DNA of 61,535 nt from a virus, in the IMG/VR virus record IMGVR_UViG_3300035182_000178, positions 1 through 61,535 of that record. One strand, written 5' to 3'. The notes under the pieces were generated by a model. It was not told the origin of the DNA, ran no database searches, and saw only the letters and a program-made list of their open reading frames with translations. A program made the translations under genes and the position numbers. Positions 868 to 61,535 of this stretch are shown here, one piece after another. How positions within the stretch are numbered: the first letter of the stretch is position 1; every line of letters starts with the position of its first letter.

Positions 868-1836
868 ATGGCACACGAAATCCACCGCGACGCCTCTGGC
901 AAGGCACACTTCGCTTATGTAGGCTCAACCCCTTGGCACGGACTCGGGCAACTGCTGACGCCCGACGCGTCACTCGCTGTCTGGACCCAAGAAGCGGGTT
1001 TCAACTGGCAAATCGAACGCGGCGATGTGATGACCGAACTGGCCGACGGATCCAAGATCGTTATGCCCGAACGTAACCTCCTGTATCGCTCTGATACGAA
1101 GGTTCCGCTGGCAGTTGTTGGTTCCAAGTACAAGATCGTACAACCGACCGAAATCCTGCACTTCTACGAAGACTTGATCGGTGCCGCTGGCTTTACGCTC
1201 GAGACTGCGGGTATGCTGTTCGGTGGTCGGCGTTTCTTCGCAATGGCGCGCACCAACTACTCCGACGAAGTGCTGGCAGGGGACAAGGTTGATCAGTTCC
1301 TGCTCCTGACTACCGCGTGCGACGGCTCTCTGGCCACGACTGCTAAGTTCACGAGCGTTCGTGTCGTGTGTAACAACACCCTGACGATGAGCCTGCATCA
1401 CGACAGCAAGCAGAACACGGTCAAGGTGCCTCACTCCGCTTCGTTTGATCCCAAGAAGGTCAAGGAGACACTGGGCATCGCTGGTGAGACCTTTGATAAC
1501 TTCCTGGTTGACATGCGCAAGCTGGCTGAAACGCCGATGTCCAAGAACGAGGCGATCAACTTCCTGATCGAACTGGTTGGCGATCCGATGGAATCTCTGG
1601 AAGACCAGACTCCGGGCGCGGCCAATCTCATGACTCACTTGTTTAATTTGTGGAATACGGACAGTATCGGCAACGAACTGGCGGGACATACTCATTGGGG
1701 CATGCTGAACGCTGTTACGGAATTCTACGACCATCACACGGGCCACAAAACCCGCGACGCTGCCCTGAACAATACGTGGTTCGGCGAGGGCGAAAAGCTG
1801 AAGCTCCAAGCCTACGACATGCTCGTTGCGGATTAA
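868..1836 (+). CDS. DUF932 family phage/plasmid-like protein
   Basis: 322 residues. The N-terminus, with its PWHGLG motif and the region up to about residue 110, and the overall length match the DUF932 family (phage/plasmid-like protein TIGR03299), common in phages and plasmids and of unproven biochemical function. The start is fixed by a strong AGGAG leader. The gene has its own promoter-like sequence upstream and an intrinsic terminator downstream, so it is probably a separate, highly expressed transcription unit. Its codon use looks more G+C-rich and regular than that of the small genes around it. Confidence 0.85.
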   Translation: MAHEIHRDASGKAHFAYVGSTPWHGLGQLLTPDASLAVWTQEAGFNWQIERGDVMTELADGSKIVMPERNLLYRSDTKVPLAVVGSKYKIVQPTEILHFYEDLIGAAGFTLETAGMLFGGRRFFAMARTNYSDEVLAGDKVDQFLLLTTACDGSLATTAKFTSVRVVCNNTLTMSLHHDSKQNTVKVPHSASFDPKKVKETLGIAGETFDNFLVDMRKLAETPMSKNEAINFLIELVGDPMESLEDQTPGAANLMTHLFNLWNTDSIGNELAGHTHWGMLNAVTEFYDHHTGHKTRDAALNNTWFGEGEKLKLQAYDMLVAD

Positions 1837-24969: not shown

Positions 24970-25092
24970 GTAAACGGTATAGCTAGCTAGCCCTAGCAGA
25001 TACCCAGCACCTCTTTTGCCATTACAAAACAGCAACATAGCAGCACTAGCAGCTATATACGCTCGAAAAAACAAAAAAATTTTTTTTATTTT
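24970..25092 (-). promoter_or_regulatory. Duplicated control element, copy 1 (faces the leftward operon)
   Basis: Read on the minus strand: A8-T7-G-T6, then CGAGCGTATATAGCTGC and TAGTGCTGCTATGT, then 28 nt of unrelated sequence, then TGGGTATCTGCT and a GGCTAGC-type box. The same blocks in the same order and with the same 28-nt spacing occur on the plus strand at 61397-61505. TATATA could act as a -10 box, with the A/T tracts as an UP-like or bent-DNA element. Confidence 0.75.
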
Positions 25093-35275: not shown

Positions 35276-38152
35276 CATTTGATACGTGGAACCACGCCCG
35301 CCAGTGTTGGCTGTCCAGCCGCTGGCCGCTCCTCCGCCGAAGTTGCCGCCCCAAACCCACATACAGCCAGTGGCTTGGATGACACCCCAGCGTGAAGTAA
35401 ATTTGTTCCAGGGGTTTGTCGCCCCTGTTCCGCTCACACCAGTGGTCGGTACGTCGCTGCCACCACTGGATGTTGCCTCGGTTGTACCATAAGCCAGCGC
35501 GGCGAACTCATCATAAGTCGGAGAACGTTTACCCCAAGATTGAAGCACCTCATTGGCTTCCCACCAAGTAAGCGTAGAGTACGTCGTGCTACCGTTACCG
35601 CCGAACTTGGCAGGAATTTTCGGAGGACTTGAACCGTCCGCGATGGTCACGTTATACTTACTAGTGCCATTAGTTAGGTGATCCACGCCAAGCAGGTAGA
35701 TGTCAGCCCAAAACGAATCGGCTACAAGAACCATACCACGTGGGTCTACAGCGGCCGGGCGGAAATTCAAGTCCCAGAATGAGTAGGCATTGATTGCTGG
35801 CGTAGCGTCTCCCCCGGACATGGCCGTAGCGTTTCCGCCGGGGGCGTAGTGGAAACCACCAATCTTTCGCCAGTTGCCGGCACTAGGCGGTGAGACGAAA
35901 TCGGTAGTCGCCTGAATCGTGGCATCGTCCTTGACCCAAATCGCGTAATCAGTACCGGATGTCAGGCTAGGCATGGTGATGGTGGTGTCACTGGCAAAGG
36001 TTATAGCAGTACCACCGACGACAATCTTAGTGCCGGATTTGATTGTTGCCGCACCTGCTCCGGTCTTGGTGAAAGCTACGGTAGTCGGATCAGTCTTGTA
36101 GAACAAGGTTTCCGAAGCAAGTGCGGGAAGCTGCGCCGTAGGTACCTTACCGCTTGCGTCGAGTATAGCCATCGCAGTCCACGATGATCCGTTCCACCAT
36201 TCTATTGCATTTGTTGTGCTGTTTGCCCGAGTGTCACCGAATGAAGGAGACCCCGGTCGCTGACCCGTCGTACCGCTCGGCATATGGGCTGCTCCAGTTG
36301 CAGAGTCTTTCACAACACCTGTAGAAGGACTTAAGAAGTCAGTACCAGCGGCGGCAAGCGACCATACTCCAGCAGATACTTTCGGAATACCAGACCAAGC
36401 AGAAGAGTTCTGACCCGTACCGCCGTACACGTTTCCGATCACGGAACCGTTCCACGTAGACCCTGTACCGAGCGTTTTGTTGGTGAGCGTTTCAACTCCC
36501 GTCAAGGAAGCGAAGTCGGCGTCAGAACAAGCCGTATTAAACTGCGCCAATGTCCCTGTAAGTGTGTTACTTGTCAGGTCGAGTGTCTTATTGGTGAGCG
36601 TATGAGCGGAGGAAACAGACGGTATAGTCGTTTGTCCTAATCCGTTACCTACCAAAAGGAAAAATCCGTCGCTATCCCACTGAATATCTCCGTTGACCGT
36701 GGGAGTCGGGGATACACTTTGCTTCAGGGTCAGCGTCGGAGTGGTCAGTGTCTTATTGGTCAGTGTCTCTGTCCCCGTGAGAGAGACAAAGTTATCGTCG
36801 GAAAGTGCTGTATTAAACTGAGCTAACGTTCCTGTAAGCGTGTTGCTTGTCAGGTTGAATGTTTTATTGGTCAGTGTCTGAGTGGCTGCGATGAGGGCTA
36901 GTGTGTCCGCACTGACAGCCGGGATAGTATGCTGCTGAATAGTCGAAGGACCAATCTTCGCGGATACGACCGGCGATGTGCCGTTAAAAGTAGTCCCGGT
37001 GCTCTGGACATCAACGAGAGCACTGCCAGCGACCGCTATTCCCAGTCCTGTCCCAGACTTGAACAAGCCAGTGTTGGTCTGCGAAGAAAAGTTAAGAGAC
37101 GGAGAAGCAGCAGCGCCGTCAACGATTGATATCGTTGTCGAAGCCTGAACAGACTGTGCAGAAACAACGTTTGTTCCGTTACACAGGGCAATAATACGAG
37201 ACGATTGCGGAACAGAAACCCCTGTGCCACTTGAAGTTTTCAAGGTGATAGCCTGTGTCGTTGACAACTGACTGTCAACATAGTACACTGAAACCACAGC
37301 AGGGACATTAACTGTCACAGGGGTTGCTGGATTACCGACAAAGGTCAGAAGTTTGTTCGCCACTTCTGCACTAGAGAGCGTGAATGTGCCACCTGCGGAC
37401 ACGTCTTTGACTAGTTGACTGAATTGGTAGATCGTACTCCGACCGTAACCAACTGAATACCACTCCGCACCTGAGCAGAAAAGACCGAGGGATTCGCCGG
37501 GTTGAACAGTGATTGTACTTTGACCATCGATCTGTTCGGAGCCATTTGGATCAATCGTGGCCGTACCGCTTCCTGCGTTACGGAAGAACACAAAGAAGTC
37601 ATCACCGAGGGTTGCCACTGCGGTCAACGACAATGTGATATTACCGCCGTTGTTCACCAACAGGGAGGCGCGGTGAGAAGACGTAACCGTCGTGTTTGTG
37701 CTAATGAGAGCAACAGGGTGTGATTGATTCAGAGAAGCACCAAGAGCTTTGATACCATAACCGATCAGTTGTGCTGCGCTAACAGAAGAAGCCCCAGCTC
37801 CAAACGCGATGAAACTCCACTGCCCATTATCCGTAGTATTGTCGGATAAATAGAAGTAACCGGCTGTACCTGCTGAGACAGTACCGACCGTGTTACCACC
37901 TAGATCCTTTAATGTGACAGTATTTGCGCCGACGTTCTGGACCAAGAAATCTTCGCCTACACCAGCTTCACTTGCACTTGGGAGCGTGAGATTTGCTGCT
38001 ACACCGGAAACCTTGATGATCTTCGCAACAGAAAGACTTGCACTGTCCGAATTCCAAGGCCACTCAAAAGAAACGTCGCCGGTCAATACCAGCGACAAGT
38101 AAGTGTTCTGAGAAGGCGGCACCGTACTGGAACCGAATACGTCGTTGTACAT
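35135..38152 (-). CDS. Tail fibre with Mtd-like C-type-lectin receptor-binding tip
   Basis: 1005 residues. The N-terminus resembles a virion-attachment segment. Residues 60-440 have repeated beta modules; at 430-590 the shaft has several TLTNKT-type repeats found in many fibres; then a Ser/Gly-rich stretch. The last ~50 residues (FGCSWGY, GSR, SSW, then VGARGVCDHLII) align position by position with the variable region of BPP-1 Mtd (FGG.WN.T...GSR...W...VCDHLIL). This is the C-type-lectin fold used for receptor binding and, in BPP-1, diversified by a retroelement. No reverse transcriptase is visible here. Confidence 0.85.
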   Translation of the reverse strand: MYNDVFGSSTVPPSQNTYLSLVLTGDVSFEWPWNSDSASLSVAKIIKVSGVAANLTLPSASEAGVGEDFLVQNVGANTVTLKDLGGNTVGTVSAGTAGYFYLSDNTTDNGQWSFIAFGAGASSVSAAQLIGYGIKALGASLNQSHPVALISTNTTVTSSHRASLLVNNGGNITLSLTAVATLGDDFFVFFRNAGSGTATIDPNGSEQIDGQSTITVQPGESLGLFCSGAEWYSVGYGRSTIYQFSQLVKDVSAGGTFTLSSAEVANKLLTFVGNPATPVTVNVPAVVSVYYVDSQLSTTQAITLKTSSGTGVSVPQSSRIIALCNGTNVVSAQSVQASTTISIVDGAAASPSLNFSSQTNTGLFKSGTGLGIAVAGSALVDVQSTGTTFNGTSPVVSAKIGPSTIQQHTIPAVSADTLALIAATQTLTNKTFNLTSNTLTGTLAQFNTALSDDNFVSLTGTETLTNKTLTTPTLTLKQSVSPTPTVNGDIQWDSDGFFLLVGNGLGQTTIPSVSSAHTLTNKTLDLTSNTLTGTLAQFNTACSDADFASLTGVETLTNKTLGTGSTWNGSVIGNVYGGTGQNSSAWSGIPKVSAGVWSLAAAGTDFLSPSTGVVKDSATGAAHMPSGTTGQRPGSPSFGDTRANSTTNAIEWWNGSSWTAMAILDASGKVPTAQLPALASETLFYKTDPTTVAFTKTGAGAATIKSGTKIVVGGTAITFASDTTITMPSLTSGTDYAIWVKDDATIQATTDFVSPPSAGNWRKIGGFHYAPGGNATAMSGGDATPAINAYSFWDLNFRPAAVDPRGMVLVADSFWADIYLLGVDHLTNGTSKYNVTIADGSSPPKIPAKFGGNGSTTYSTLTWWEANEVLQSWGKRSPTYDEFAALAYGTTEATSSGGSDVPTTGVSGTGATNPWNKFTSRWGVIQATGCMWVWGGNFGGGAASGWTANTGGRGSTYQMENVATFGCSWGYSTEPGSRCSSWNSSPTASYNSVGARGVCDHLIIN

Positions 38153-38155
38153 GAA

Positions 38156-38773
38156 TCAACCTCGTACAGAAGAAGCGTTGATGAAACGTTCTTGGTCTTC
38201 CGATACGATGTTATTCAGAGCGGCCATGTAGAGACCTTGAAATTCCTGCATACGTTCGGAAGTCTTCAAGAACGGCATAGCTTCTATCAACGAAGCGTAA
38301 AGAAGAAGTTGTGGTGCATACTGCGTCAGCCAGTTTGTCTGATTGCTTTTGTCCAAAGGCTCTGGCCGCTCGTAGTATTGTAGCTCGAATTGGTACGCTT
38401 GTGCAGGTGTCGGCACAACAAAGAAATGTTCGTAGTCGTAGTCGGCGAAGTACACGGGGACGTCAATCTTGGATGGATCGGGCCAATAGGCACGACAATA
38501 TTCGTAACCGCGTAACTTCAACGTCACTCGACCTGTTGAAGTGATCAATGTGATGTTCTTTGTTTTGCGCCAGCGAACAGGTTTTTGCATCACGTTACCG
38601 TTCATGACCCCCGTTACGGTACGCAAGAGACCGAAAGATTTTTTCTCACTGGCAATACGGTTCTCCGCCATCATAATGAAACGCGGGATTTGGGAAACAA
38701 ACGGGTCATCGCTTCGCTCACAGTAAGTTTGAATATCAGTAGTGAGCGAATCATACGTCATTACTTCAGCCAT
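38156..38773 (-). CDS. Head-tail adaptor (SU10-type phage adaptor family)
   Basis: 205 residues. Conserved features: MTYDSLTTDIQTYCERSDDPF, IPRFIMMAENRI, the VPYF-like DVPVYFADYDYEHFFVVPTP block and YYERPEPL followed by NWLTQYAP and LLLYASLIEA. This pattern is typical of SU10-like adaptor proteins that join portal to tail. Located between fibre and zinc-ribbon genes. Confidence 0.75.
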   Translation of the reverse strand: MAEVMTYDSLTTDIQTYCERSDDPFVSQIPRFIMMAENRIASEKKSFGLLRTVTGVMNGNVMQKPVRWRKTKNITLITSTGRVTLKLRGYEYCRAYWPDPSKIDVPVYFADYDYEHFFVVPTPAQAYQFELQYYERPEPLDKSNQTNWLTQYAPQLLLYASLIEAMPFLKTSERMQEFQGLYMAALNNIVSEDQERFINASSVRG

Positions 38774-38775
38774 GA

Positions 38776-39003
38776 TTACACCAGTTCTTCGTCAGGGCGC
38801 GGGTGGCGCAGGGTAATAACCTCTGTCTTACGCGCAGGGAGCTTGTATGGATCTTTGTTGTCTTTGCAATCAGGACAGACGCGTAATCCAGGGAAATTTG
38901 GGTCTGGTGAGAGTGAGTCGTAATCAACTTTAAAACGACAACGGTCGCACATTGCAACAGCGACCGTGTTCCCACCTAGCTTGACCGGGCGGTAGAGAGA
39001 CAT
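38776..39003 (-). CDS. Small zinc-ribbon virion-region protein
   Basis: 75 residues with CDRC near residue 19 and CPDC near residue 43, a single zinc site. A protein with the same CDRC...CPDC layout is often found between adaptor and neck genes in podoviruses; its role is unknown. Confidence 0.7.
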   Translation of the reverse strand: MSLYRPVKLGGNTVAVAMCDRCRFKVDYDSLSPDPNFPGLRVCPDCKDNKDPYKLPARKTEVITLRHPRPDEELV

Positions 39004-39005
39004 TG

Positions 39006-39995
39006 TCAGCCTCCTGTGTATCCGCGAATATTGGGTGCGATAAATACAGGGGAACCGTCGACTTCCGAAGAGCCAGCAGTGAGTGTAAATCTGTCCGCCA
39101 TTTCTCCGATTTCTTTACGGCGAGCTGGATCAACGTTCGGTACTTCAAATGACGCACGTAAAGCGAGTTGCCAGTTCACGGCTTCAAGCCATCGTGTCGG
39201 AATCTCGATCTCGTTGGTCAAGTCCCCGATGTCTTGAATCTGTCTGTAGCGAAACAGCTTTAGGTAGTTCGTATCTTCGTTGGGCACCGGCCACAGTGAA
39301 ATGCGCGGGGCAATGAGTTTCTCGAAAAAGAAATTCAGACTCACAGAACTCTGTGATTCTTTATTCGGAAGTGCGGAATAGTCGTCGCGATTGAATGCAG
39401 ACATCGGCACTTCACGCGCAGAAGAGGCGAGCAAGATATTGTTCACAGCGACAGCCGCCGTAGAAGAAACACGGAACTGCAAAACAGAGATCACTGGATC
39501 AACTTCGAACCAGTTATAGAAACCTGTCGGTTCCAAATTTGCGACCTGCACTGTTTTCAGGTTATTCCAGCTAATGCCGTCCGTCGAGTACTCGACGAGA
39601 ATAGGTTGTGTTGGAACAGAATCTAGACGAAAAGCGTACCGAACGATCGAAGCATTCGCAGCAAGCACTGCCGTCTTAGACGTTGCATTCGAAGAGAATG
39701 AGTCTACAGCGACCAAGCTGGGTACGCAAAACAACAAGTTAAGAACGTCTGTTGTGCCGATGGGCGTATCGTAAGTCTTTTTGCCGGAGAACACTGGGAG
39801 CAGATTCTGCTCTACGCACCAAAGATTAAGCCCTTCGTTACTCAGGGATACCAGGAACATGAACAAGGATTCGCGTAACGAATCAGATATTTCTGGCGTG
39901 AGCGTTTCAGGTGCAATCCCGCAACGACGAAGCGCCTTGGACATCATCTTGTCGATGTCCATAACAGTTAGGCCGACTGTGCCGGATGTAGCCAT
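39006..39995 (-). CDS. Neck/tail accessory protein
   Basis: 329 residues. The helical N-terminus (MDIDKMMSKALRRCGI and following) and the beta-rich centre, then RWLEAVNWQLALRASFEVPN near residue 275, resemble P22 gp4-like / neck proteins of podoviruses. No lysozyme motif is seen. Position next to the adaptor supports a connector role. Confidence 0.55.
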   Translation of the reverse strand: MATSGTVGLTVMDIDKMMSKALRRCGIAPETLTPEISDSLRESLFMFLVSLSNEGLNLWCVEQNLLPVFSGKKTYDTPIGTTDVLNLLFCVPSLVAVDSFSSNATSKTAVLAANASIVRYAFRLDSVPTQPILVEYSTDGISWNNLKTVQVANLEPTGFYNWFEVDPVISVLQFRVSSTAAVAVNNILLASSAREVPMSAFNRDDYSALPNKESQSSVSLNFFFEKLIAPRISLWPVPNEDTNYLKLFRYRQIQDIGDLTNEIEIPTRWLEAVNWQLALRASFEVPNVDPARRKEIGEMADRFTLTAGSSEVDGSPVFIAPNIRGYTGG

Positions 39996-42887: not shown

Positions 42888-43865
42888 TTATGCCTTAGAC
42901 TTCTTGTCGGATTCTTGATAACGCTTAATCATCGCGGCCCGTTGTTTCGGGTCGTCCCACATACCTGCTTCCTTCAGCGCAGAAACGCGCTCAGGAGAGA
43001 GGCGGAAGACGCCCTTGTTCTGGGTCGGAGTACTTTCGCGTCCGGAACCGGCAACGACAGACTTCGGCTTATTGGGTGACACTTTACCACGAGGTGTGCG
43101 ATGTGGCAAGTATTTTTTGATACGGCTGTTAAGTTCGTCCCAGTATTCTTGCGTACGAGGGTTCCAACCTTCACGATGCATAGCATCGTCAATCTGACGA
43201 GCGATCTGGGAATCCAGGTCTGCACCATTGGGGTCGTACCAAGAATTCTTGGAAACCCACTCGTCGGCACGAATACGCACTTGCGGATCAATCGGAGAAA
43301 CTTGCTGCTGACGTTGCGCGTACGCAGTCTTAACGTTGACAAGCTGTTGATGACGCTGGTTCAGTTGGTATAGTTTTTCAGTGGCTTCAGCGACTGCCTT
43401 ACCGTCACCGGCCTGAGTAGCTGTTGCGATCTGTTCCTTAAAGAAACGTTGACCTTGTTCTGTCTGATTGATCGCCGAATCAAGCTGAGCCAGTTGATTA
43501 GCACTATTGTTACGCTCGATTGACTCAAGACGCTGGCGCATCTCGTTCAGTTGTGCTTGGCTAGCGGAAAGTTCTCGCTTGAGCGTGTCTTCACGCTCAC
43601 GTTGCGCTTCCTTGCGATGACGACGTTCTTCGCGACGACGCTGGCGAATGGCCTCGCGCTCTTCGTCACTGTCACCTTCACCGGAACCCTCGTTGGAACC
43701 TTCACCGGAACCCTCGTTGGGACCTTCACCGGAACCCTCGTTGGAACCTTCACCGGAACCCTCGCTGGAACCTTCGTCGTCTTCGTCGTCGAGGGATTCC
43801 GTGTTGGTTTCTAGTACAGGGTTCTCGACAATTTCACCTTCTTCATTGACGTAAATATCAGACAT
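42888..43865 (-). CDS. Scaffolding protein candidate
   Basis: 325 residues from 43865 (AAGGGAAAG site). The acidic Ser/Gly/Glu/Asn repeat region (about residues 32-64) is followed by a long Arg/Glu coiled coil (EEREAIRQRRREERR...) and a basic C-terminus. This acidic-coiled-basic design plus position before the capsid gene is typical of internal scaffolds. The repeat is encoded by a 24-bp tandem array. Confidence 0.65.
   Translation of the reverse strand: MSDIYVNEEGEIVENPVLETNTESLDDEDDEGSSEGSGEGSNEGSGEGPNEGSGEGSNEGSGEGDSDEEREAIRQRRREERRHRKEAQREREDTLKRELSASQAQLNEMRQRLESIERNNSANQLAQLDSAINQTEQGQRFFKEQIATATQAGDGKAVAEATEKLYQLNQRHQQLVNVKTAYAQRQQQVSPIDPQVRIRADEWVSKNSWYDPNGADLDSQIARQIDDAMHREGWNPRTQEYWDELNSRIKKYLPHRTPRGKVSPNKPKSVVAGSGRESTPTQNKGVFRLSPERVSALKEAGMWDDPKQRAAMIKRYQESDKKSKA
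43683..43778. repeat. 24-bp tandem repeat, four copies, in the scaffold gene
   Basis: Four consecutive copies of a 24-bp unit (plus-strand GGAACCCTCGTTGGAACCTT followed by CACC), the last one diverged. On the coding strand it gives the eight-residue repeat GEGSNEGS. Copy number may vary between isolates. Confidence 0.8.
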
Positions 43866-44028
43866 TTTCTTTCCCTTCAGTTTGTTGCATGAGAGCAGCT
43901 TGCTCACTGACCTGCGTTTGGATCTTCTGGATCGCGGAGAGTGAAACCTTGGCGGGGAGTTCTAGTAGACCAGACAGGACAAGATTAACGTCGTCCACTT
44001 CCAGTGTAAGTACGAATTGATTTTTCAC
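43858..44028 (-). CDS. Small conserved-looking phage protein
   Basis: 56 residues. The GTG start overlaps the stop of the GroES-like gene (TGTGA), and the stop overlaps the scaffold ATG, so the three genes are coupled. The sequence FVLTLEVDDVNLVLSGLLEL then PAKVSLSAIQKIQTQV is like small phage proteins containing a LGELPAK..I.KIQ motif. Function unknown, but the reading frame fits the operon exactly. Confidence 0.65.
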   Translation of the reverse strand: MKNQFVLTLEVDDVNLVLSGLLELPAKVSLSAIQKIQTQVSEQAALMQQTEGKENV

Positions 44029-56346: not shown

Positions 56347-57681
56347 TTATCTCACGCTATGAAGGAATTCCGGCGGAAACGGGAAATCCTCAAAGAATGG
56401 GGTTGTTCGTTTGGAAGCATCGGAAGCGTGCTGAAGCGGAAGGGTTAGACGCTCAGCGACCTGATCAGCTTGTGCTTCGCCAGCATTGGCTCGGTATAGG
56501 GTGTAAAGATCGGCCACCTGCTCCTGAGAGAGACCCTTCATTGGATTATCTTGTCCGAAGCCTTTGGCGCTGGTCTTGACTTCGTATGGCGCGGCGTATG
56601 AAATACCCTTATCCAAAAGACCCTGTAGTGTGTCTCGTTTTTCCATGCTACGCATGATACGATTGGCGAAATCCGTATTGATCTGAGACAATTCCATCAT
56701 ATCGACAGGGTCTTCTTTGTGCGCATTCTGAATAATTCGCTGAATCCCTCGCCAATTGTCCTTACTCATACCGAGTTCGCCGTAAGTACGAAGCAGTTCC
56801 AACGGGTCTTTACCCTCAGAAAGATCGCGATAAACACCGGCTTTCATTAGGTACTTTTCAAACTGCGAGTCAATATTCTTGTCGTGGAGAATATCGCGCA
56901 TATATTCAGGCGTGGTGCCCCCGATCGCACCTTCAGCACCTTGTCCTAGATGGGTCAACTCGTGCGCCATCGCAGAGCGAACCCGTTGATCCGCCGCCAT
57001 TGGGTACTGACGGAAAAATTCTTGGTGCTCAGGTTTCAGGTGACCGACACCGTATCCGAGACCCATTTCATTCGCGCTGCGGGCGTAGAAACCTGTGCCG
57101 AGCGGTTCTGTCAGAGAATTTTCAAGTCGCGTGGCTGCGAGTTCAGGTTCATACGCCTTGAAAAATTTGTCAGGAATACGCCACTGATCCAAGAGAGGAA
57201 CGGGTTTCCCCCATTGCGTATTGCCTTTGCGCGGAAGCAGGTCTGCATCACCGACCTCGAACCAAGGTTTCCCATCAAATCCAGTATGGACGCGCAAGTC
57301 GCCTGAGTTGTGTTGATTGCGGTACTCTTGACCTGCTCGCTTGGCTTGAGAAGCGAACTCATGCTCCTTAGACAACGCGTCCAGGATCATGTTACTACCA
57401 ATTCGTTCTGCACCACGCATACCGACTAACACACCGAGCGCACCGCCGCCGAGTGCCTTGGTTCCAGCCAACTTGGACAATACACCCACGACTTTACTCG
57501 GGACACCTGTGCCGATAAGATCATCGGGAGACACCATCGGTTGCTCAAGCGCGTGACCACCTTTGCGCTCATAGTCAGACTGCCAAGTTTCTGACGGACG
57601 CGACATAACACTATCCCGCATTGGGTCATTGCGGTCTTTTGTGCGTCGTTGCGACCGAACATAGTCTTCAAGTGCGCCCAT
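56347..57681 (-). CDS. Polyvalent-type protein with zincin-like HELTH motif
   Basis: 444 residues. RSAMAHELTHLGQG carries an HExxH metallopeptidase signature near residue 240. A second conserved-looking stretch, YRANAGEAQADQVAERL near residue 410, matches the YRxxxGExxA pattern of large-polyvalent-protein-associated domains that accompany zincins and supplies an acidic third-ligand candidate. It lies directly after TerL. It could be a virion-borne protease, processing head proteins or acting in the host; neither is shown. Confidence 0.6.
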   Translation of the reverse strand: MGALEDYVRSQRRTKDRNDPMRDSVMSRPSETWQSDYERKGGHALEQPMVSPDDLIGTGVPSKVVGVLSKLAGTKALGGGALGVLVGMRGAERIGSNMILDALSKEHEFASQAKRAGQEYRNQHNSGDLRVHTGFDGKPWFEVGDADLLPRKGNTQWGKPVPLLDQWRIPDKFFKAYEPELAATRLENSLTEPLGTGFYARSANEMGLGYGVGHLKPEHQEFFRQYPMAADQRVRSAMAHELTHLGQGAEGAIGGTTPEYMRDILHDKNIDSQFEKYLMKAGVYRDLSEGKDPLELLRTYGELGMSKDNWRGIQRIIQNAHKEDPVDMMELSQINTDFANRIMRSMEKRDTLQGLLDKGISYAAPYEVKTSAKGFGQDNPMKGLSQEQVADLYTLYRANAGEAQADQVAERLTLPLQHASDASKRTTPFFEDFPFPPEFLHSVR

Positions 57682-57699
57682 TTTCTAAGCTCAAGTGGG

Positions 57700-57732
57700 T
57701 TAGGTGTAGGCCGCAGCCTACACCTAATTTTT
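57700..57732 (+). terminator. Perfect 12-bp hairpin with T-tract, plus-strand terminator
   Basis: TTAGGTGTAGGC-CGCA-GCCTACACCTAA followed by TTTTT on the plus strand, just downstream of TerL, whose operon runs on the minus strand. In plus orientation it is a textbook intrinsic terminator that would block antisense transcripts. In minus orientation it is a stable mRNA hairpin without a U-tract. Confidence 0.65.
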
Positions 57733-57736
57733 GAGT

Positions 57737-59239
57737 TTAGCAAGCGTAAGGGTTATGCCTCGTCCGAGGCGTATCGGCATACTCTTCGTCGTACTCAACA
57801 GGGTCAACAGAAAGAAATGACTGATCCCGAAGCAGAGCCAGTGTCTGTGTGAATGCATCGACTTGGTCATCGTGCAAACTATTCGGAAACATGCAGATTT
57901 CCGAAATAAATTCCGTCGCCCAAGTGCGAAACTCCCCCGGCACCTTCGTAGATTCCGGGATATAACAACGTTCATTCGCCACCAAATGCGAAACTGCATG
58001 AAGCCGTTGAATCTTATCCATCTTACCGGGGTTGTAAGACCGCACTGGAAGACCAGCTCGTCCCAAATCCTGGAGCAATGTGATGCCAGAACCCTTTTCT
58101 TCAATTAGAATCAGGTCGGCTGGCTGACCTTTGTCAAAGGGATCATTTGGATTACCGCCGTACCGAGTTGTTTTGAACTCATGCGTCACTTTTTCCCGCA
58201 AATCCGGATACTTGAGGTGATCAGTCCAACAATCGAGCAGCATCACACAGAAAGGTGAGTCAGATGTTGGTCTGAAAACGCCCCAAGTCTGGTGAGCAGT
58301 GGGATCGTTGTGTGTTTTTTCCGTGAAAGCCGTATCGTAAGACTGAATAATATAGTCAAAACGAGGCAATTCCTTGTTCGCAGGCCAAAGTTTGAACCAA
58401 GAACGCTTCACAATCCCCTGTTCTTCCAAGTTAAGTACTTCAGCGTGAATTTCTTGTCGTCCAAGGAGGGTTCCTTCATATTGAACGAGTTGTTGGAAGA
58501 AGGTGCCGGCCAGATTTGTCCTGTTTTCGTAGCTGGAACCCGTGGTCAACAAGATTCGACCTTCTATCGGTTTCCCTTTTTCCATGTCATTGATCTGTTG
58601 TTTGATCTTTTTGATGAATTCTTGGACCAACGGGACAGGTTTGGGTGTGGTTGTCACGATCACTTGCGGGTTGTGACCGAGTCGTAGACCGAACATCGCC
58701 ATGTCCCATGCACGTTGCATGATTTCAGGGCTACTAAAGCCAGCAAGTTCATCCAACCAGAGTGCATCGTGCTGTGGTCCACGGAGTCGCTCTGGCTCTT
58801 CTCCTGAGTACAATGACGCGATTGCTCCGTTTGACCAAGTGATTCTTCGCTTCGTCGGTTCGTAGATTGGCCGGTTCCATGGCGGAAACACATTGATAAT
58901 ACCAGACTCGCCTTCAACAATAACGTCTCGGAGGTCGGCCGTTGTCGGTGAAATGATGCCAATACGCTTCTTCCCACACTTCTCCACCCAGTGTCGAACT
59001 TTCTCGGCCCCAGTGCGAGTTTTGCCGAACCCTCGTCCAGCAAGAATTAACCAAAGGAACCAGTTCTGGTTTTCGATTCCCTCTAGCTGTTTGGGTCGTC
59101 CGTTAAACTCCCAGTCGTAGAGCAAGGCTTCCGCTTCTTGGTCTGTCAACTTTTGCAAGAACTCTATGCGAGCTTCTTCTGGGAGAAGATTTAGTCGCTC
59201 TTTCTTGGACAAGAGCTTGGTGTCTGGTTTATCACTCAT
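57737..59239 (-). CDS. terL: Terminase large subunit (TerL)
   Basis: 500 residues. Walker A is AGRGFGKT at 67-74, Walker B ALWLDE with the catalytic pair D163-E164, and coupling motif VIVTTTPKP near 194. The RNase-H-like nuclease domain shows SYDTAFTEK and, at the end, HDDQVDAF. It translocates DNA into the procapsid and cuts the concatemer. First gene of the long minus-strand late operon; TerS is 1.4 kb upstream with a plus-strand gene in between. Confidence 0.92.
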   Translation of the reverse strand: MSDKPDTKLLSKKERLNLLPEEARIEFLQKLTDQEAEALLYDWEFNGRPKQLEGIENQNWFLWLILAGRGFGKTRTGAEKVRHWVEKCGKKRIGIISPTTADLRDVIVEGESGIINVFPPWNRPIYEPTKRRITWSNGAIASLYSGEEPERLRGPQHDALWLDELAGFSSPEIMQRAWDMAMFGLRLGHNPQVIVTTTPKPVPLVQEFIKKIKQQINDMEKGKPIEGRILLTTGSSYENRTNLAGTFFQQLVQYEGTLLGRQEIHAEVLNLEEQGIVKRSWFKLWPANKELPRFDYIIQSYDTAFTEKTHNDPTAHQTWGVFRPTSDSPFCVMLLDCWTDHLKYPDLREKVTHEFKTTRYGGNPNDPFDKGQPADLILIEEKGSGITLLQDLGRAGLPVRSYNPGKMDKIQRLHAVSHLVANERCYIPESTKVPGEFRTWATEFISEICMFPNSLHDDQVDAFTQTLALLRDQSFLSVDPVEYDEEYADTPRTRHNPYAC

Positions 59240-59436
59240 GGGTCGTCACCCTTGGTTGGTTAGGAGCACACAGTGTAGCACGGGTTGGAGTAGGAAACTT
59301 GGTTGGTTGAGGGGAGTATGTAAATGGCATATGTAAATTTTTTGAACATTCAAAAATTTCGACTGCGGGTGAGTGGGCAGGGAGGCCGATGCACTCATCC
59401 AAATGGGGGTCTCTCGGTCATCAATCGACGAAGAAC

Positions 59437-59628
59437 GTTGTCCCGTTGTCCCGTTGTCCCGTTGTCCCGTTGTCCCGTTGCCCCGTTGTCCCGTTGCCCC
59501 GTTGCCCCGTTGCCCCGTTGTCCCGTTGCCCCGTTGTCCCGTTGCCCCGTTGTCCCGTTGCCCCGTTGTCCCGTTGTCCCGTTGTCCCGTTGCCCCGTTG
59601 CCCCGTTGCCCCGTTGCCCCGTTGCCCC
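59437..59628. repeat. 8-bp tandem array GTTGYCCC, 24 copies
   Basis: 24 perfectly phased copies of GTTGTCCC or GTTGCCCC, differing only at base 5 (T or C). The order of that base is TTTTTCTCCCTCTCTCTTTCCCCC. It lies between TerL and the 59823 gene. It could be a protein-binding array (packaging, partition or replication iterons) or a slippage-prone minisatellite. The unit is too short and lacks spacers, so it is not CRISPR. Confidence 0.95.
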
Positions 59629-59736
59629 ACGATCCGAGGTCAAGCGCCTGTCTCCGTTGTATGCATATGCACGGGAGGCATTAGCTAAACTTATGGGGCA
59701 ATAAAAATATTTATGGTACAGGTCACAAAAAAAGTA

Positions 59737-59822: not shown

Positions 59823-60437
59823 ATGAAAGCCACTCTTAAGAATCTGCATGTTACCCGTGACCTGCTACTGTCTGCTGACTTCACTCGCGATATGCTACTG
59901 GAATTGTCCGTCGGCACTGGCGCATACACCATACAAGGTGCCACCCAAATGGCCGACGCCAAGATGAGCAGGCCGAGCAAGATCCTTGCCGGTCTGGACT
60001 ACCCGAAGCTGCGCACTGCCTTGATCCAGAAGTTCGAGGTGATGTACCCCGACTTCACCGAGAAAGGTTTCATGTACAATGAGCAGAATGTTGAAGAAGA
60101 CCTGGACATCGGGAAGGCTGGTGCCAACAACAAGCGCAAGTCTGGCGGTCGTGCCAGCTCTCTAAAAGGTGAGTATGAGGTTGTAAAGAAGTCCGGCAAT
60201 GCCGAGTCGGACGAAGGCAAGTGGGCTATTTGGCAACACGTCTGGGCGTGCAAGTCGTTCGAAGAATTCTTCGCCGTGGCACCTGTCAAGAGCATCACGA
60301 AAACTGGCCGCGTTATTACCGCCAGTAGCGAGATTCAGTGGGCGCTCAAGTCAGGTTGGATCAAACCGAAGGCCGCCGAACAACAGGCCGCCGAACAACA
60401 GGCCGCCGAACAACAGGGCGAGGACAGCGCCCAGTAA
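59823..60437 (+). CDS. Lone plus-strand protein sharing a domain with the 6072 gene product
   Basis: 204 residues, strong promoter, AAGGAG site and own terminator: a monocistronic gene embedded between TerL and TerS on the opposite strand. Residues 110-185 align with the C-terminal half of the protein at 6072-6560. The N-terminal part contains a Lys/Arg-rich stretch (GKAGANNKRKSGGRAS) that could bind nucleic acid. The C-terminus is three AAEQQ repeats encoded by a 15-bp tandem repeat. Regular codon use suggests high expression. Function unknown. Confidence 0.7.
   Translation: MKATLKNLHVTRDLLLSADFTRDMLLELSVGTGAYTIQGATQMADAKMSRPSKILAGLDYPKLRTALIQKFEVMYPDFTEKGFMYNEQNVEEDLDIGKAGANNKRKSGGRASSLKGEYEVVKKSGNAESDEGKWAIWQHVWACKSFEEFFAVAPVKSITKTGRVITASSEIQWALKSGWIKPKAAEQQAAEQQAAEQQGEDSAQ
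60372..60416 (+). repeat. 15-bp tandem repeat, three copies
   Basis: GCCGCCGAACAACAG repeated three times at the 3' end of the 59823 gene, giving AAEQQ x3. A probable slippage site with variable copy number. Confidence 0.85.
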
Positions 60438-60459: not shown

Positions 60460-60487
60460 AAAGGCCTCCCAGCTGGGAGGCCTTTTT
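60460..60487 (+). terminator. Terminator of the 59823 gene
   Basis: Stem AGGCCTCCC-AGCT-GGGAGGCCT followed by TTTT, 23 nt after the stop codon. Strong intrinsic terminator on the plus strand. Confidence 0.9.
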
Positions 60488-60501
60488 GCATTTGAGGGAC
60501 A

Positions 60502-60600
60502 GGCTTGCGTGGCGGAGCCATAGGCGCTCGTAGCAGCTTTGCCGCTACGCTGGTACTAGCTGGCGTATATTGGCGCCTTGGCGGCTCCGCCACGCAAGCC
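60502..60600. repeat. Large inverted repeat with internal hairpin (cruciform candidate)
   Basis: Outer arms: GGCTTGCGTGGCGGAGCC (60502-60519) pairs with 60583-60600. After a small bulge the pairing continues with AGGCGC/GCGCCT. Inside is a second hairpin, CGTAGC (60529-60534) with GCTACG (60544-60549). It lies between two converging terminators, so it belongs to no gene. Candidates are a packaging (pac/cos) recognition site, an origin or a structured RNA. Confidence 0.85.
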
Positions 60601-60640
60601 ACAGAGGTATTGCTATACGGTGCAGCCCGCACCAAAAACA

Positions 60641-60665
60641 AAAGGCCAGCATTATGCTGGCCTTT
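60641..60665 (-). terminator. Terminator of the terS gene
   Basis: Stem AAAGGCCAGCAT/ATGCTGGCCTTT; on the minus strand it is followed by TGTTTTTGG. It ends terS transcription 18 nt after the stop, so terS is not co-transcribed with terL. Confidence 0.85.
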
Positions 60666-61165: not shown

Positions 61166-61535
61166 AATCGGCTCCAATCACCAATCAAATCAATATACAC
61201 ATACTACCATTCAACAATCAAAAAAAGCAAGATTCACGCGCACGCGCCAATGAACAGTTATCAAAAAATAGTTTTGAACCTCGTAAAAAAAGACCTGCTA
61301 TTCACTAGCAGCACAATACTATCCAAAATAAACACCAGATACCCTTACACAGCAATAACTTACAGCATAGTTCCCTGTTATAGCAGGTCGCCAATTTTTT
61401 AAAAAAAATTTTTTTTGTTTTTTCGAGCGTATATAGCTGCTAGTGCTGCTATGTAATTGTATCCAAAGGTAAAAAAACCTAATGGGTATCTGCTTGGCTA
61501 GCACTAGTTTGTAGCCACATTGCATAAATTTTTTA
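61166..61535. other. 370-bp AT-rich non-coding right end
   Basis: No supported gene. It holds copy 2 of the duplicated control element on the plus strand, an A8-T8 tract, and on the minus strand a GGGTATCTG box (near 61336) that faces terS. It is likely a divergent control region: plus strand toward the left-end early genes if the ends join, minus strand toward terS. Confidence 0.65.
61397..61505 (+). promoter_or_regulatory. Duplicated control element, copy 2 (faces rightward)
   Basis: A8-T8-G-T6, CGAGCGTATATAGCTGC, TAGTGCTGCTATGT, 28 nt, then TGGGTATCTGCT and GGCTAGC: the same blocks and spacing as copy 1 at 24970-25092, but on the opposite strand. If position 61535 joins position 1, it lies about 130 nt before the first plus-strand gene at 75 and would drive that early block. 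Confidence 0.75.

Follow-up and report, generated by a model that had tools for sequence, protein, structure and literature searches.

Genes and features of the terminase locus

The window (the whole stretch of viral DNA analyzed, 61,535 bases) is a record of linear class without end repeats. Its two terminase genes, terL and terS, are separated by an orphan gene, here called gene X (Table 1). TerL matches PF03237 (Terminase_6N; E 3e-24) and PHROG 38/2, and the putative TerS matches the terminase small subunit family PHROG 309 (E 3e-4) in a region confined to residues 115-147; its structure model was of too poor a quality to be used. The gene X protein has no Pfam or PHROG match, and its structure model is of low confidence and gave no fold match. 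DNA polymerase, primase, helicases, thymidylate synthase, exonuclease, portal, and endolysin are also encoded in the window, and no integrase, the criterion for an attP site, was found among 25 proteins scanned against PHROGs. The record probably represents a nearly complete genome whose opening (61535/1) appears to fall in non-coding DNA between terS and the rightward genes, because the sequence of a relative (L004) continues unbroken from terS into a counterpart of window positions 868-1836.

TABLE 1 Features of the terminase region and of the inverted repeat between terS and gene X
Feature	Position	Strand	Basis
terL, terminase large subunit, 500 aa	57737..59239	-	PF03237; PHROG 38/2
Gene X, orphan protein, 204 aa	59823..60437	+	Convergent with terS; kept beside terS in L004-L006
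Gene X terminator, intrinsic, 13-bp palindrome then TTTTT	60460..60485	+	Repeat search and terminator scan
Left arm, 18-bp perfect inverted repeat, GGCTTGCGTGGCGGAGCC	60502..60519	+	Repeat search and own-record search
Hairpin interior, 63 nt	60520..60582	none	Predicted fold: nested stem and two small hairpins
Right arm, 18-bp perfect inverted repeat, GGCTCCGCCACGCAAGCC	60583..60600	-	Repeat search and own-record search
terS terminator, intrinsic, 12-bp stem then TTTTGTTTTT on the - strand	60641..60665	-	Repeat search and terminator scan
terS, putative terminase small subunit, 160 aa	60683..61165	-	PHROG 309; synteny with terL; relatives L004-L006

Several other repeats were observed. The 3' end of gene X contains three 15-nt repeats (AAEQQ; 60370-60420) that are missing from gene X of L004, L005, and L006. 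Between terL and gene X, about 23 copies of the octamer CGTTGTCC/CGTTGCCC occupy 59396-59640, and the same gap holds other short repeats in the relatives (GTTGAAAAATTT in L006 and GAACCGTGCCA-like repeats in L004 and L005). Upstream of terS lies an inverted pair, GACCTGCTAT/ATAGCAGGTC (61292-61301 and 61380-61389), which is a possible candidate for an operator or binding sites; AGCAGGT recurs upstream of terS in L004. A 12-nt tandem repeat, ACCTTCACCGGA/ACCCTCGTTGGA, lies at 43650-43793 within the open reading frame 42888-43907.

A 96-nt AT-rich block, composed of A/T runs followed by CGAGCGTATATAGCTGCTAGTGCTGCTATGT, occurs twice in inverted orientation (24992-25087 and 61402-61497; 82% identical), and a related block is found in L004 (5674-5759) and in L005. 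The block is likely a duplicated promoter/leader or an origin, since its copies stand ahead of the rightward early genes and of the leftward replication genes.

Structure of the element between terS and gene X

The preliminary description had reported a 99-bp repeat, with an 18-bp perfect outer stem enclosing a further hairpin, between the terminators of terS and the gene at 59823. The repeat search recovered it at exactly 60502-60600, 82 bp downstream of terS and beyond the terminators of both convergent genes, each of which is canonical in the terminator scan. The arms are 100% complementary across their 18 bp and are spaced 63 nt apart. In the predicted fold, an internal loop (2 nt against 4 nt) separates the outer stem from a nested stem of 7 pairs (60522-60528/60572-60578), which encloses small hairpins at 60530-60548 and 60549-60564. 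The earlier count of 24 or more pairs with a bulge was therefore right in substance, the fold having 25 pairs and an internal loop instead of a bulge.

The element is a real and extreme structure. Its folding energy is -68 kcal/mol as RNA (z about -7 on either strand) and -38.7 as DNA (z -5.6), neither of which was equaled in 200 shuffles. When the window was shuffled 60 times by a Markov model, perfect stems (loop up to 100) reached at most 13 bp, and a GC-corrected sliding scan of 110-nt stretches ranked 60501-60610 first for folding in the 61.5 kb (z -5.8). Across 947 kb of fetched loci, all but one of the looped repeats (loops of 15-100) are shorter than the 18-bp stem. The element is probably a selected structure. 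Searches with Rfam covariance models and for tRNAs gave nothing above the gathering score at the element, nor does it resemble an intrinsic terminator: it lacks a T-tract, its interior spans 63 nt, and the terminator scan called the flanking terminators instead.

The runner-up in the fold scan (57681-57790; z -4.9) lies immediately 3' of the terL stop codon and consists of a hairpin, TTAGGTGTAGGC...GCCTACACCTAA, lengthened by outer pairs.

Search for other copies

Mobile, MITE-like copies at other sites, the outcome named in the preliminary description as evidence against its proposal, were found neither in the record itself nor in the phages, plasmids, viral contigs, and bacterial genomes searched. 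The window contains no third copy of the arm within 3 mismatches, so that the element is single copy in its own record; the exact arm is absent from the viral contigs searched, and no phage or plasmid matched the element. Paired 13-nt arms spaced 48-78 nt apart were absent from 84,980 bacterial and archaeal genomes. All of these searches are insensitive to diverged copies, to longer-interior elements in bacterial genomes, and to an unsequenced host. One relaxed viral match (L139) was rejected, as it shares only an 11-bp core of the arm, GTGGCGGAGCC, in an unrelated contig with an unrelated interior, at about chance level.

Conservation in related phages

Relatives of TerS and gene X were found in L004, L005, L006, and a partial locus, L035, a set too small for covariation statistics. 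TerS is 69-70% identical in L004 and L005 and 57-59% identical in L006; gene X, which faces terS in all three, is 42-44% identical to that of the window. In L004 and L005 the most structured site is a hairpin in the interval between terS and gene X, 81 nt long, paired almost throughout and closed by a 13-bp outer stem, whose sequence bears no similarity to that of the window element. The L005 hairpin folds as that of L004 with DNA parameters, whereas RNA parameters favor another arrangement.

The preliminary description had looked to compensatory changes in relatives for conservation of the stem. The L004 and L005 hairpins differ in 3 of 84 columns, two of which form one compensatory A-U to G-C change while the third breaks a pair. 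Neighboring columns differ more often (7 of 64), although not significantly so (p 0.10). L004 and L005 are close kin, on separate contigs of one metagenome, and are counted as one lineage; the compensatory change happened once and carries little statistical weight. L006 has no significant hairpin from terS to the next terminator, and the strongest fold of its locus is an 18-bp terminator-like palindrome in the interval between terS and gene X.

The gene X terminator precedes the hairpin in the window, L004, and L005. The claim that the element is shielded from transcription holds for the window, where it lies beyond both terminators, but not for L004 and L005, in which the hairpin starts 2 nt past the terS stop codon with no terS terminator ahead of it. 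Nor does it follow from such shielding that the element acts in cis or as DNA structure, as the preliminary description concluded, since the L004 and L005 hairpin would be transcribed.

A second clade (L037-L041) has TerS proteins of 35-37% identity, with terS upstream of terL and no gene X between them. Upstream of terS, L037 carries a 13-bp hairpin (558-618) and a 19-bp inverted repeat (904-962); in L039 and L040, the left arm is kept and the right arm is shortened. A conserved terS leader, GACCT..TTATAAAG..GATGGGTCCCA..CTCCTA, is present at 640-1063 of L037 and in the matching stretch of L038-L041, and is possibly a cis element or an RNA. The gene upstream of terS in L037 and L038 was discarded as a counterpart of gene X, as the gene X profile does not recognize it, and the 7-mer TTGCGTG common to the arms of the window and L037 was judged too short for use.

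Genome ends of the nearest cultured relatives

Among cultured phages with annotated ends, those closest in TerL are the Caulobacter phages RW, RLK, KcrB, and GB2A (40% identity over 93%). RW has an exact terminal repeat of 2,940 bp, and identical terminal repeats are annotated in GB2A; the passages on these phages consulted in PMC11053796 do not state how the repeats were determined. In both phages the start of the repeat falls between terS and terL, some 500 bp downstream of the former and on the same side of terS as the window element. The earlier candidacy of the element as a pac/cos site, made from its proximity to terS, is partly supported, in that the nearness is real and the Caulobacter repeat boundary falls in the terS-terL interval; L006 lacks a comparable hairpin.

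A perfect 18-bp palindrome in RW, GCTTGCTCGCGAGCAAGC (59381-59398; L114 19382-19399), lies 24 bp outside the boundary of the 2,940-bp repeat; the 22 kb of RW scanned holds no other 9+9 bp palindrome with zero loop. The palindrome was noticed after the fact and serves as a lead only. The resemblance between the TerS proteins of RW and the window is confined to a 12-residue C-terminal motif, so that carrying the packaging argument over from RW to the window phage is uncertain.

Possible functions of the element

How terminases select their cut sites has been worked out, to our knowledge, in just a few model phages, and most uncultured phages are not known to have mapped ends. From its position and structure, the best single reading, a tentative one, is that the element acts at the DNA level in genome-end processing by the terminase. 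It would be a single-copy, non-coding DNA hairpin, capable of forming a cruciform, within the processing site, and would mark or help to form the junction at which TerS/TerL recognizes and cuts the replicated phage concatemer. A presumed direct terminal repeat, which would carry terS, would have its boundary at this junction or close to it. Such a role supposes that the window phage, by analogy with RW and GB2A, packages from a concatemer with terminal repeats, that the repeat boundary is near the hairpin, and that structure matters rather than nearby sequence alone. Genome-end processing is favored by an element that is the strongest fold of the window, is single copy, has a structural counterpart in L004 and L005, lies past the gene X terminator there as in the window, and adjoins the terminase genes, where the ends of RW and GB2A lie; the presence of DNA polymerase, primase, helicase, and portal genes, with no integrase among the proteins scanned, points the same way. 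Against it stand the absence of a significant hairpin at this place in L006 (TerS 57%) and a hairpin sequence lacking the conservation typical of cos/pac sites. In addition, the RW boundary offers a short palindrome only, and the T7 right end has no comparable perfect repeat. Reading of the cruciform or hairpin by shape, by TerS or by the orphan protein X, would suit a sequence that turns over fully between relatives while the hairpin stays put, and is considered quite improbable.

A close rival to genome-end processing, though itself doubtful, is a transcription barrier or RNA-level element between the convergent genes. A hairpin in read-through RNA could limit antisense transcription, or the structure could serve processing or stability of the terS 3' end, the two variants sharing this one modest likelihood. 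Gene X and terS are indeed convergent, the L004 and L005 hairpin would be co-transcribed with terS, and the strongest fold of the L006 locus is terminator-like and in the same interval; however, both window genes have canonical terminators ahead of the hairpin, and the element lacks a T-tract, a short interior, and an Rfam match above threshold. An RNA-only role in terS mRNA misfits the window and one in gene X mRNA fits neither the window nor L004 and L005, so that a DNA-level role or a read-through barrier appears to fit them best. A replication element (an origin, a terminus, or a hairpin-priming site) is unlikely: the strong dyad in non-coding DNA and the hairpin priming and inverted repeats at the DNA ends of phage N4 (PMC3896407) speak for it, whereas there is no GC-skew switch at 60.5 kb and the duplicated AT-rich block is the better origin candidate.

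Insertion of a MITE-like element with 18-bp terminal inverted repeats is about as unlikely as a replication role. The size of about 99 bp and perfect terminal repeats beginning with GG would be in keeping with such an element, and the ACA on either side (60499-60501 and 60601-60603) could be a target duplication, although it is only 3 bp long, with a coincidence chance of about 1/64. The element is, however, single copy, dispersed copies are absent from the collections searched, and L004 and L005 carry an unrelated hairpin at the same place. That the element has no sequence-specific function, being a chance or drifting palindrome or an assembly artifact, is very unlikely. Its sequence was found in no other record and L006 has no counterpart, but its stem length and folding energy are far outside those of shuffled sequences, its stem exceeds all but one looped repeat in the 947 kb, and the separate L004 and L005 contigs both keep a hairpin there.

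Should the hairpin prove to mark the place of cutting, genome ends could be located by means of it in a group known almost exclusively from metagenomes, and recognition by DNA shape would be suggested; as a transcription barrier alone, it would be ordinary.

Comparison with known systems

Intrinsic terminators and the hairpins between convergent genes are, like the element, GC-rich hairpins at convergent 3' ends; the element differs from them in its missing T-tract, its long interior, and its position beyond both real terminators. Hairpin structures are formed in T7 concatemers during genome-end replication or processing. The analogy with T7 did not hold up in a simple comparison, as positions 37000-39937 of T7 contain no perfect repeat of at least 9 bp (loop up to 120). 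Both T7 and N4, the latter with inverted repeats and hairpin priming at its DNA ends (PMC3896407), parallel the proposed role of the element in having hairpin structures at genome-end replication or processing, but their ends have no homology to it.

The cos/pac sites of tailed phages are, like the element, single-copy non-coding DNA adjoining terS. Known sites are recognized by sequence or intrinsic bend, whereas the window and L004 share the presence of a hairpin and not its sequence. The Caulobacter phages RW, RLK, KcrB, and GB2A (proposed Riverwalkvirus) differ from the window in having no gene X and, in place of a long hairpin, only the 9+9 bp palindrome near the boundary, but they resemble it in genome size (62 kb) and in having terS and terL toward the right end on the - strand.
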